The notes under the pieces: model-generated
What the model saw: the letters and a program-made list of their open reading frames with translations, nothing else
Databases searched by the model: none
What the model was told of the DNA's origin: nothing
Translations under genes and position numbers: made by a program
From: an uncultured Lachnospiraceae bacterium
GTDB lineage: Bacteria > Bacillota > Clostridia > Lachnospirales > Anaerotignaceae
Length of the DNA stretch: 32,922 nt
Direction of reading: 5' to 3'
Assembly: GCA_944380405.1 (NCBI GenBank)
Contig: CALWHO010000035.1
Span: 1-32,922 of the forward strand
Part shown: positions 8,770 to 13,560 of the stretch, in pieces
Numbering within the stretch: the first letter of the stretch is position 1
Layout: every line of letters starts with the position of its first letter

Positions 8770-8942
8770 TAGATTACATAATAATAGGAATTATTCTTAT
8801 TATTTTGATTTTGGCTATTTCTTATGTTTATAAAGCCAAAAAGAGAGGTCAAAAGTGCATAGGCTGCCCTGACAGCTGCACTTGTGGAAAAGAAAAAGAA
8901 AATTCTTGCTGCGGCTGTGTAGGTTCAGAAGATAAAAAATAA
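8766..8942 (+). CDS. FeoB-associated Cys-rich membrane peptide
   Basis: Peptide of 58 residues: one N-terminal membrane helix (about residues 3-22, IIIGIILIILILAISYV), a basic patch (KAKKRGQK), then a Cys-rich cytoplasmic tail with seven cysteines (CIGCPDSCTC and SCCGC). This matches the small FeoB-associated family found at the 3' end of feo operons in Firmicutes. Its ATG overlaps the feoB stop, indicating coupling. The cysteines could bind Fe(II) emerging from FeoB or act as a redox partner; this is inference, since the family's role is unsettled. Confidence 0.88.
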   Translation: MIDYIIIGIILIILILAISYVYKAKKRGQKCIGCPDSCTCGKEKENSCCGCVGSEDKK

Positions 8943-8959
8943 TTTGAAACAATAATATA

Positions 8960-8995
8960 AAAAGGTATTCCATAAGCTTGTGGGATACCTTTTTT
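8960..8995 (+). terminator. Rho-independent terminator of the feo operon
   Basis: Long stem AAAAGGTATTCCATA/TGTGGGATACCTTTT around loop AGCT, with G-U wobbles, then a T run. Confidence 0.85.
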
Positions 8996-9339
8996 ATATA
9001 TAAGTATTGGTAATGTCATAGATATCAAACTTAGTTTATTAAAATAAATTGTAAATATTTAATAATTTATAATATATTATTTTAGTTTTAATTTATAAGA
9101 GGACATATTTATTAATAATAGTTTATTTATAGAAATTGTATAAAGTTAAAAATATGCAGATATGCATTCCATAAAAAAGTAAATAATATTAGAAAATATT
9201 TTTAATATTTAAGATTTATACAGTAATAAGAAAATGCCAAAAAAATTGTGCAAAATGTCACAATATATAACGATAATTACATATACAAAAATTATACAAT
9301 AAAATATAAAAATATACAAAAAATCATGCAATATTCACA
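8996..9339. other. AT-rich spacer upstream of the SLH gene
   Basis: About 340 bases of extremely AT-rich DNA with many A tracts and no open frame with a ribosome binding site. No RNA gene or riboswitch recognised. A tracts upstream of a promoter may bend DNA or act as an UP element. Confidence 0.5.
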
Positions 9340-9367
9340 TTGCGTAAAATCGGGGGGGGGGTATAAT
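9340..9367 (+). promoter_or_regulatory. Promoter with a G10 tract in the spacer
   Basis: TTGCGT (9340-9345) as a weak -35 and a consensus TATAAT (9362-9367) as -10, spacer 16. Ten consecutive G (9352-9361) fill the 3' part of the spacer and touch the -10 box. Such G runs are rare in this AT-rich DNA. A gain or loss of one G by slippage would alter spacer length and promoter strength, as known for phase-variable promoters in other bacteria. The SLH gene starts 49 bases downstream. Confidence 0.6.
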
Positions 9368-9415
9368 TGTTTTGTATAAATATTTTTATTTTAATAACTT
9401 TGAGGTGATAATTAA

Positions 9416-11887
9416 ATGAAGAGGAAAGTAGGAAAGGTCACATTATCAATGGCATTGGCTGCTGCAATGGTATTTGCACCTGTGCAGGCTTTTGCATCAG
9501 CTACAGATGTTTCAGGTCATTGGGCAGAAGAAGTCATTACAAAATGGCAGGATGCAGGATTAATTTCCGGTTATGAAGATGGCACATTTAAGCCTGAAAA
9601 CAGCGTAACACGTGCAGAATTTGCTGCAATGGTAAATAATGCACTTGGCTTTACTGAAAAAGGCAATGTTGCTTTTAGCGATGTTAAGCCTGGCACATGG
9701 TATTATGATGCAGTTGCAATTGCTGTAGAGGCTGGATACTGCTCAGGATACGAAGATGGTACATTTAAGCCAGATGCAACTATAACAAGAGCAGAAGCTG
9801 CAGTAATGATTTCTCGTGCAAAAAGTTTAGCAGAAAATGCAGCAGAAGCAGAAGGATTTGCTGATGCAGACAGTATTCCATCATGGGCAAAGGGCTTTAT
9901 AGGTGCTGTTAGCGAAGCAGGCTTTATGAGCGGTAGACCAGACGGCACATTTGATGCTACAAGCACAATTAAAAGAGGAGAAGCTGTATCTTCTTTAGAC
10001 AGAGCGATGAGCGAAGAAGAAACAGAAGTTGTTGAAGAAGAAAAAGACGTTGTAGTAACAGAAGACGATACAGTAATTGAAGGACAGGTAATCGAAGGCG
10101 ACCTTATTATTGATGAAGCTGTTGGAGATGGTGAAGTTTATGTAAACGACACAACAGTTAAGGGTGATGTAATAGTTAAAGGCGGCGGAGATGACTCCGT
10201 ATACTTTGAAGGCGTTACTGTTGAAGGCAGTGTTTATGCAGAAAAGAAAAATGTCAGATTACAGCTTAAAGGTGAAAATGACATAAAAACTATAGTAGTT
10301 AAAGAAGTATGCAATATTGTTGGCAGAAACTTTGAAGGCGTTATTGATTTAATTTCAATAGAAGAAGAAACAGGAACAAGCGACGAGGTTATAATTGATA
10401 TTCCTGTAACAGAACTTGAAGTTAATGCAAAGGCAAGTGTTCAGATTAAAAAGGACGTTGAAAAGTTAACAATAGCAGAAGATGCTGCATCATCAAAGGT
10501 TGAGGTTGTAAGCGGTGCTACTGTTGAAACAGTTGTAGTAGATGCAAAGGCTGCTTTTTCAGGTGCAGGAAAGATTGAAACACTTGAAGCAAATGCAGAT
10601 GGAATTACTGTTTCAAGCAGCACTAATGTTTCAAAAACAGAAGTGGCTGACGGCGTAAGTAAGCCAACTACAAGCACAAGCACAAGCGGCGGCGGTGGCG
10701 GCGGCGGAAGCTCATCAGGCGGAAGCTCAAGTTCTAGCACAACTAAAACAGTAAATAGTGCTTCTGAACTTAAATCTGCATTAGAAAAGACAAGCGTTAA
10801 AACAATAAATATTAGCGGTACAATAGGTTCAACAGAAGCTTATGAAATTTATAATGTTGACCGTGCTGTCGAAATAAAAGGTGGTACAGTATATGGTTCA
10901 TTTGTTGTAACAGGTAACGAAGCAACATTTGATGATGTTACAATTATAAATAAAGGCGACGAATCAGGACAGAATACAGCTGTTCGTAACGGTATAAGTG
11001 CTGCATGCCATACATTAACAGTTAAAAACTGTACATTTAAAATGGAACAGCCAACAGGCGGTATTTCAAATGGTTTATCTATATGGCCAACTAAGACTGA
11101 TGTAAGCTATACAATTACAGGTAACACATTTAATGGCTTTAAACAAAGTGACAACGGCTATGCTTCAACAGCTATAACAATTTCAGGTGGTATAACTAAG
11201 GAAGCTATTACAGGCATTGCTAAAGCAAGTGTACCTGCTGATATGACAGAAGAAGAAGACTTAGCTATAATCGAAGGCAATACATTTAAAGACTGCAAGA
11301 GCGATTATTCTCGTGAAGACTGGACAAACGGAAACAAAGTATATTGCCGTGCGGTATCAAATGGTACTAACTTATTACCAAACAATGCAGCAGACAGTGG
11401 TGCTAAATATTACATTACAGGTGCTGTAAACCGTACAGGAGATACAACAATAAAAGGAAATACAACACTTACTATTACAACAAAAGGCTCTCTTACAATG
11501 GGTGAAGGAACAACTCTTACAGTAGATGGTGATGTAACAGGTACAGTAATTGGTAATACTGATTGTAAGCTTATTGTTAATGGCAGTGTAAACGCATTGG
11601 AAAAAGATACATATACATGGACAGGTGAAGCATGGACAGTAGAAGCAGAAGGTGCATCACTTATGATGATGGAAGTATTAGAAGCAGAAGCTGTAGCAGA
11701 TGAAGTTACAGAAGCAGAAGTTGTAGAAGGCGAAGCAACAGAAGCAGAAGCTGCAGAAGGCGAAACAACAGAAGCAGAAGCTGCAGAAGGCGAAGCAACA
11801 GAAGCAGAAGCTGTAGAAAGTGAAACAACAGAAGCAGAAGCTGCAGAAGGTGAAACAACAGAAGTTGAAGGTTTAGTTGAAGCTTAA
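9416..11887 (+). CDS. SLH-domain surface protein with beta-helix-like body and acidic repeat tail
   Basis: Secreted protein of 823 residues. Signal peptide MKRKVGKVTLSMALAAAMVF..., cut near residue 28 (AFA-SA). Three N-terminal SLH repeats (about 31-74, 86-133, 147-195), each with GYEDGTFKP or similar, should bind the cell wall. Next are a Glu-rich linker, a Val/Asp-rich repetitive segment (VIEGDLIID, VKGDVIVKG) suggesting a parallel beta structure to about residue 415, a Gly/Ser linker (about 422-444), and a second beta-helix-like region resembling pectate-lyase-type folds (about 445-745), with no catalytic site seen. The tail (763-822) is six copies of a 10-residue acidic repeat. Start fixed by GAGGTG upstream. 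The promoter has a G10 tract, so expression may switch on and off. Confidence 0.88.
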   Translation: MKRKVGKVTLSMALAAAMVFAPVQAFASATDVSGHWAEEVITKWQDAGLISGYEDGTFKPENSVTRAEFAAMVNNALGFTEKGNVAFSDVKPGTWYYDAVAIAVEAGYCSGYEDGTFKPDATITRAEAAVMISRAKSLAENAAEAEGFADADSIPSWAKGFIGAVSEAGFMSGRPDGTFDATSTIKRGEAVSSLDRAMSEEETEVVEEEKDVVVTEDDTVIEGQVIEGDLIIDEAVGDGEVYVNDTTVKGDVIVKGGGDDSVYFEGVTVEGSVYAEKKNVRLQLKGENDIKTIVVKEVCNIVGRNFEGVIDLISIEEETGTSDEVIIDIPVTELEVNAKASVQIKKDVEKLTIAEDAASSKVEVVSGATVETVVVDAKAAFSGAGKIETLEANADGITVSSSTNVSKTEVADGVSKPTTSTSTSGGGGGGGSSSGGSSSSSTTKTVNSASELKSALEKTSVKTINISGTIGSTEAYEIYNVDRAVEIKGGTVYGSFVVTGNEATFDDVTIINKGDESGQNTAVRNGISAACHTLTVKNCTFKMEQPTGGISNGLSIWPTKTDVSYTITGNTFNGFKQSDNGYASTAITISGGITKEAITGIAKASVPADMTEEEDLAIIEGNTFKDCKSDYSREDWTNGNKVYCRAVSNGTNLLPNNAADSGAKYYITGAVNRTGDTTIKGNTTLTITTKGSLTMGEGTTLTVDGDVTGTVIGNTDCKLIVNGSVNALEKDTYTWTGEAWTVEAEGASLMMMEVLEAEAVADEVTEAEVVEGEATEAEAAEGETTEAEAAEGEATEAEAVESETTEAEAAEGETTEVEGLVEA
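11702..11881 (+). repeat. Six tandem 30-bp repeats encoding an acidic C-terminal tail
   Basis: Units begin at 11702, 11732, 11762, 11792, 11822 and 11852; the core is GAAGCAACAGAAGCAGAAGC plus CTGTAGAAGG-like bases. The middle four units are nearly identical, the last diverges. They encode E(A/T)TEAEAAEG decapeptides. Unit number could change by recombination or slippage without changing frame. Confidence 0.92.
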
Positions 11888-12044: not shown

Positions 12045-13560
12045 TTAAATATTATATTTCTGGCAAAGACGCTTTTGTGTTGTGCCGTAGTATACTTTAT
12101 AGCCTGTTACATTTACCATTTTGTCCCATGTTAATGTAACGGACTCGCTTCCTGCTGTGGCTGTTAAGTTCTGTGACTTTGCAGCTTCTGCTTCAGGAGC
12201 TTTTTCAAGTGTTTCTTCAACAAATTCAATCTGCTTAATTACGGCTGTTTCATTATCTGCTGTTTTAGTTACCTGAATAGTAACTTTTTTAACTACTTTT
12301 CTTGTTCCTAAGTTTACAACAAGCACGTTATCTGTACTGCGTGAAGAAAGTCTTGCCATAGAAACAGCATTTTCATATGGAATAGTTTCTGTTCCGTTTT
12401 CAGTTTCAACAATTAAGTTGAATTTTTCTATACCTGCATTAGACGGTGTTGAAATCTGTATTTCGCTCATTTCAACAGGCTCTGTAAATGATATTGGTAT
12501 TTCAAGAGGTGAGCTTTCTGAAATTTCTTCGCTGTCTGTTTTTGTAAGAGTAACTTCTTCTTCAGCTGTAAATAAATCGCTTAATGATTTGCCGTCACTT
12601 ATTTCTACATTTGATAAGTCTGTTTCAGCTGTATCAATATTATTAATAACAGCCTGTGCAACCATTGAGCCATTTTGAGCTACAGCCATGCCTGTACCCT
12701 GAACCATTATGCCTCTGTTTACATAATATAAATCAATAATATTTACTTTTCCGTCTTTATTAATGTCATAGTCTGCATTTGTTGTTCCAAGAGCAGACTG
12801 CATTTCTTCCTGGTCGTGGCTGTTTACTGTGCCGTCATTATTTACATCGCCTAATGTAAATGTGCTTTCTTTTGTGCCGATTGTTACTATTTTTGAATAC
12901 TTTTCCAAAGAAAGCTGTCTATATGTATAGGTACGGTATCCGTCACCTGTTACAGTTACTGTATATATATCATCTGCACTGCCAGCAGGAAGTGAATGGG
13001 CTATAATGTCTATTGCTGCAACAATATCATTTTGGCTGCATTCATTTCCGTATTTATCAACATATTTATATGATATGTTTGGTGAAGCAAGTGTTTTTCC
13101 ATTAGCAGATGATACTGTCATTTTTATATTTTGTTTCTCAACAGTTTCTTTTGTTAATGGATAATCCATTCTTATACGGACTGTAATTGAAGATGTGCTT
13201 TCAACAGAAGAAAGGTATACAGTTTCTTTTTCTTCTTCTTTTTCCATTTCTTCTGTTTTAAGCTCTTCTTTTGGTTCTTCTTCAGGTTCTTCTTCTGGAA
13301 GTGCTTCGTTTTCTTTATTATTTTCCTTTATTTCTTCTTCTCTAAATGCGCTGTCGCTTTCTGACTGAGAAGAGCTATCTTCTTTATTGTCTTCTGTTTG
13401 TGATAAATCTTCATCTTCTATGTTGTAGTTTCTTCAGATGCGGTGCTATCACTGGAAGATATTATTTCATTTGGTGATAATTCTTCTGCATAAACGCCCT
13501 GTAAAGAGCTGCTTGCCATTAACGCTGCCAGCACTATGCACGGCAGTGCATTTTTTTCAT
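12045..13560 (-). pseudogene. Secreted dockerin/FN3 protein gene with several lesions
   Basis: Remains of an exported modular protein. The best start is ATG at 13560, with GAGGT 8 bases upstream, but its frame closes after MKKMHCRA. One more A in the A7 run right after the ATG would give MKKNALPCIVLAALMAS and QGVYAEE, a fine signal peptide. A second -1 shift near 13419-13430 is needed to join the frame that is open from there to 12045. That frame encodes a Glu-rich linker, a beta-sandwich-like region, a type I dockerin with two calcium loops (DVNNDGTVNSHD, DINKDGKVNIID), a further beta-rich domain, and the first 40 or so residues of a fibronectin III domain (TLTWDKM..GYKVYYGTT), which stops early at 12045. 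Two shifts and a cut FN3 domain suggest a decayed gene, though assembly errors could explain the shifts. Intact, it would be a surface or cohesin-bound protein. Confidence 0.7.

Follow-up and report, generated by a model that had tools for sequence, protein, structure and literature searches.

Could a run of ten Gs in front of a gene for a wall-anchored protein serve an uncultured Lachnospiraceae bacterium as a random on/off switch? Phase variation through simple repeats is known chiefly from Gram-negative pathogens and mycoplasmas, and in gut commensals attention has centred on invertible promoters. The run (G10) lies in the 32,922-nucleotide stretch analysed here, referred to as the window (contig CALWHO010000035.1 of assembly GCA_944380405.1), 5' of a gene encoding an 823-residue protein with SLH domains. 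An earlier note, made from the sequence alone, described the run as sitting directly against a TATAAT hexamer, between it and a weak TTGCGT, with a spacing around 16, and proposed a likely phase-variable switch. The coordinates are confirmed: the 16-bp spacer occupies 9346-9361, and six nucleotides separate TTGCGT from the tract (Table 1). Because many other promoters are built in the same way, we consider it probable that the gene undergoes porA-like transcriptional phase variation by slippage in its promoter spacer. The G10 would form part of the spacer of a sigma-A-type promoter transcribing the SLH gene; strand slippage during replication would add or remove single Gs, altering the distance between the -35 and the -10, which is 16 bp in the present sequence and would be 17 bp with G11; and this distance would set SLH transcription high, low or off in each cell, heritably and reversibly. 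Promoter activity, variation of tract length in the population, and expression that follows this length are what we infer. The likely benefit, a guess from the class of the target, would be a mixed population whose cells differ in one exposed wall protein, under selection by phages, immunity or adhesion.

The layout recurs across genomes in a strictly oriented form. The order of the source genome is represented by 392 genomes, of which 26 contain G8TATAAT, one contains the reversed pattern and one C8TATAAT; TTGACA-N4-9-G8 is present in 38 of the 392, compared with five for the reversed control, and its matches usually carry the -10 directly after the G run. The class layout, which consists of TTGACA, 5-11 nt, G8-G11 and TATAAT, thus far exceeds the reversed and poly-C controls in the order, and it extends well beyond the order; characteristic of the class is that the Gs lie on one strand only and adjoin the -10. 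A scan of 84,980 species genomes yielded at least 119 stretches with TTGACA-N5-12-G8-TATAAT; among the matches listed, most belong to metagenome-assembled genomes of Clostridia and Bacilli, many of them from animal guts, and further hosts include Saccharibacteria, spirochaetes, Streptobacillus and Helicobacter. A single match was obtained in 2.9 million viral contigs. From the matches listed, 160 promoters (loci L017-L247) were collected for comparison; they are partly related, and the P values given below are to be read as indicative.

This recurrence bears on the simplest alternative, that Gs accumulated by chance, or were called falsely by two-colour sequencing chemistry, beside a fortuitous TATAAT. 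The source genome is a 209-contig draft, and some G runs of other drafts lie near contig ends, as an artefact would have it. Here, the tract is internal to its contig, with flanks of 9.3 kb and 23.5 kb, and it is the sole run of at least eight Gs in the 2.03 Mb genome, which otherwise has two runs of exactly seven. The earlier note held such a run to be unexpected by chance, and this is borne out by models set to the composition of the genome (34.5% GC, from the window statistics), under which the whole genome should contain 0.09 (first-order Markov) or 0.005 (second-order) runs of at least ten Gs; chance becomes far less likely still given that the G10 stands right against a perfect TATAAT 5' of a gene. 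Together with the orientation-specific enrichment across the order and the finding of the layout in records that bear strain names (Blautia luti MSK.16.34, a gut commensal, and Streptobacillus notomytis AHL 370-1), these data make a chance or artefactual origin highly improbable.

The genes behind these promoters encode, for the most part, exported proteins. A crude signal peptide or N-terminal anchor is recognized in the products of 108 of the 146 promoters with a downstream open reading frame (ORF) (74%; controls 22-24%). The simple hydropathy test used for these targets was applied equally to the controls, and it picks out 141 among 589 other ORFs of the same loci (P = 6e-29) and 10 among 48 genes that follow ordinary TTGACA-TATAAT promoters (P = 1e-10). 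Pfam domains of the downstream proteins include BspA-type leucine-rich repeats (10 proteins), InlB-type and Ig-like repeats, YSIRK signals and collagen repeats, as well as ABC transporters and two LytTR regulators. At loci L153, L171, L175, L184, L202 and L234, adjacent paralogues have a tract apiece, those of L171, L175, L184, L202 and L234 being secreted-protein genes; the two copies at L171 have nearly the same promoter, with tracts of G10 and G9. The SLH locus fits this class, and the case for switching there is strong by comparison.

The lengths of tracts and spacers point in the same direction. G9 (47%) and G10 (26%) are the commonest tracts in the 160 promoters, the lower end of the distribution being cut by the search, which demanded at least G8. 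This is close to the distribution for the phase-variable poly-G/C tracts of Campylobacter, of which 53% have nine and 26% ten residues (PMC6321876). Tract length differs between some related promoters that have kept the tract, namely G8/G9 (L186/L197), G10/G9 (the two L171 copies), G11/G9 (L078/L079) and G9/G11 (L134/L157). The spacers range from 13 to 20 bp, with 18-19 bp commonest and high counts at 16 and 18-19, and the 17-bp spacer is found in only 11 of the 160 poly-G promoters compared with 46 of 72 ordinary promoters of the same loci (P = 1e-19). Shuffling tract and flank lengths among the promoters predicts 24 at 17 bp against the 11 seen (P = 0.0005); the depletion persists when only perfect hexamers or one site per locus are used (P = 0.001), as well as in range-limited shuffles, and the promoters of the order alone, with 4 of 32 at 17 bp, are too small a sample to reveal it. 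Because 17 bp is depleted, the state that predominates in a sequenced population tends to be one without the usual spacing. The dip could mean either that most cells are in a low or OFF state or that the optimum is not the same for spacers rich in G; since counts are high to either side of it, at 16 and at 18-19, the former is favoured.

The same numbers allow us to weigh a second alternative, in which the tract is a real promoter element of fixed structure and its length is no switch, the stiff, A-form-leaning G-C DNA beside the -10 lowering or setting promoter strength or serving a regulator. Such a spacer would account for a geometry stricter than slippage needs, with the tract on the non-template strand and abutting the -10, for the preference for 18-19 bp over 17, which could compensate for a smaller rise per base pair, and for the related promoter pairs that have tracts of equal length. 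A fixed element should, however, hold one spacing, and the class instead spreads over 13-20 bp and avoids 17 bp whatever the length of the flank; moreover, the tract lengths match those of known hypermutable tracts and differ between some related promoters, and the targets are biased to exported proteins. On balance, we regard a fixed structural spacer as unlikely.

Returning to slippage in the spacer, the occurrence of this layout before secreted-protein genes of many, mostly gut, bacteria probably reflects a widespread and little-described random on/off switch. A broader proposition, to which we assign an even chance, is that poly-G-spacer promoters constitute a widespread, unrecognised phasome in gut-associated Clostridia, Bacilli, Saccharibacteria and spirochaetes, which randomly switches exported and adhesin-like proteins and whose majority state lies off 17 bp, leaving most cells low or OFF and a minority ON. 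The kind of mechanism is itself known; what seems to be new is how widely it extends among bacteria that are mainly gut-associated, and that 17 bp is avoided. The phasome surveys that we found deal with Campylobacter and Neisseria, and no description of poly-G-spacer promoters in gut Clostridia or Bacilli was found in the literature searched, outside of which most subscription journals lie. If the class does switch, the motif TTGACA-N-Gn-TATAAT would flag surface genes under random switching across many gut species not yet cultured, and the ON and OFF fractions of these genes could be obtained, without culture, from metagenomic reads that already exist; the depletion of 17 bp predicts that most cells in nature are low or OFF for genes with poly-G promoters.

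Several known systems share elements of this arrangement. In the vlp genes of Mycoplasma hyorhinis, which encode surface lipoproteins, a homopolymer likewise adjoins the -10, lying directly 5' of it, but it is poly-A rather than poly-G and the lineage is another. The closest parallel is porA of Neisseria meningitidis, whose poly-G separates the -35 from the -10 and whose transcription ceases once the spacing falls short of 17 nt (PMC7864442). In both cases the gene for a major surface protein has a homopolymeric run of Gs in the spacer of its promoter, and the G10 would be counted among porA-type tracts, those of G7 or longer inside the -35/-10 spacer, subject to the weak -35. The two differ in host lineage and protein class, and the gonococcal porA run has the form (T)nC(G)nT (PMC5320596) whereas the SLH tract abuts TATAAT directly. 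Control of a surface receptor by spacer length is also described for fetA of Neisseria gonorrhoeae, where the tract between the -10 and the -35 is poly-C (PMC5320596); in the order examined here, C8TATAAT is nearly absent. R28 (Spy1336) of Streptococcus pyogenes is a surface protein with both a variable upstream homopolymer and coding tandem repeats, each polymorphic (PMC7098570); there, the homopolymer is a poly-T in a divergent intergenic region and not a G tract in a spacer. Finally, tprL and other tpr genes of Treponema pallidum have promoter poly-G tracts of 8-10 that vary within an isolate (PMC7864442). As at the SLH gene, the poly-G is located at the promoter of a surface protein, in Treponema a surface antigen, but in the tprL type it spans the -10 and leaves the spacing unchanged, whereas the SLH promoter has an intact TATAAT after the G10 and its spacing would change. 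The tpr genes suggest a further alternative, namely that the tract is hypermutable and acts through binding of a regulator or formation of the open complex, as in tprL or opc, for which the proposed effect of tract length involves no simple change of spacer (PMC7864442). This would explain the poor TTGCGT; the related promoters, which have a perfect TTGACA at a plausible distance, fit control through the spacer, and we consider a regulator or open-complex route rather improbable, less so only than chance or artefact.

Since a terminator-like hairpin and T run close the upstream feoB operon, the SLH gene needs a promoter of its own. The pair TTGCGT/TATAAT was not listed by the promoter scan, its -10 being perfect and its distance 16 bp but its -35 matching the consensus at only three of six positions (TTG is kept). 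As for a second promoter, the interval 8940-9500 contains 6 candidates on both strands, compared with a chance expectation of 6.8. Predicted DNA secondary structure of the promoter region is no better than that of shuffles (z = 0.10). As regards an invertible promoter, no convincing flanking repeats were seen, a search for recombinase genes not having been made; the inverted repeats around the promoter are AT-rich pairs only, such as 9264-9290/9370-9396 (70%) and 9036-9048/9385-9397 (13 nt).

A number of observations weigh against a switch at this gene. In addition to the weak -35, several related promoter pairs have, as mentioned above, tracts of equal length, and the G10 length is known from one genome assembly. 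When G9 tracts of the order were sampled without selection, the majority were away from promoters; a G run alone therefore proves nothing, and we do not claim every G run as a switch. The tract is missing from same-family homologues of the SLH gene, and the sole available genome of a genus-mate (68% complete) has neither the SLH gene nor the intergenic region; searches for homologues of the promoter region in relatives gave short matches only, and a named-genome search with the whole SLH protein did not find a relative. Conservation of this particular switch is thus absent as judged from these sequences, and, with tractless homologues in the same family, a switch here would be a recent, lineage-specific acquisition. 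Neutral in this respect, the genome encodes two MutS_V-domain proteins, and a loss of mismatch repair is not obvious, so that instability would come from the tract itself. The proposal of a phase-variable switch in the earlier note accordingly gains from the class, through recurrence, exported targets and scattered spacers, and loses from the weak -35 and the tractless homologues.

The same note had identified the target as a large wall-anchored protein, and this is upheld by a signal peptide and three SLH domains (E = 1.6e-41), which indicate that the 823-residue product is located at the surface. Approximately 12 SLH proteins are encoded in the genome, and the tract is present at this gene only. 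Homologues that are 28-41% identical share a conserved N-terminal part of about 420 residues and diverge beyond it, a pattern that would suit a protein anchored in the wall by its conserved part and exposing its variable one. A structure model built with six sequences is confident at about residues 30-200 (SLH) and 210-420 (all beta), with confidence below 50 from residue 511 on. The 30-bp tandem repeats in the 3' end of the gene are a second likely length-variable element of the same protein. In a genome of the same family, an SLH homologue (locus L047, contig C31) is 73% identical over the first 128 residues and has stop codons at two places.

Table 1. Features of the SLH locus, in positions of the window
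Feature	Position	Strand	Basis or remark
Terminator-like hairpin followed by T run, end of upstream feoB operon	8959..8994	+	Inverted repeat, 18-nt arms, 89% complementary; T-rich end
Putative -35 hexamer TTGCGT	9340..9345	+	Sequence; related promoters carry TTGACA at the same place
G10 tract, promoter-proximal part of spacer	9352..9361	+	Only run of at least 8 Gs in the genome
-10 hexamer TATAAT, adjoining the tract directly	9362..9367	+	Same abutment in 160 related promoters
Ribosome-binding site region TTTGAGGTGAT	9399..9409	+	Sequence just 5' of the ATG at 9416
SLH surface protein gene, 823 aa: signal peptide, three SLH domains, beta-rich stalk, variable C-terminal part	9416..11887	+	
30-bp tandem repeats, acidic C-terminal repeats	11680..11864	+	6.2 copies, 89% matches

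Elsewhere in the window, a second SLH protein is encoded at 2-1462 (486 residues, open at the window edge, with its promoter outside the window), in which Ig-like and Listeria-Bacteroides-type repeats can be recognized by eye, and a 400-residue protein with a type I dockerin domain is encoded on the minus strand at 12045-13247, downstream of and convergent to the SLH gene. As regards the two G7 runs of the genome, one is away from any TATAAT and the other (L008 1501-1507, contig C187) lies 6 nt 5' of the ATG of a lipoprotein-like gene, where it resembles a ribosome-binding site. G9 runs located just before start codons, similar to this G7, are found across the order and could be translational switches.
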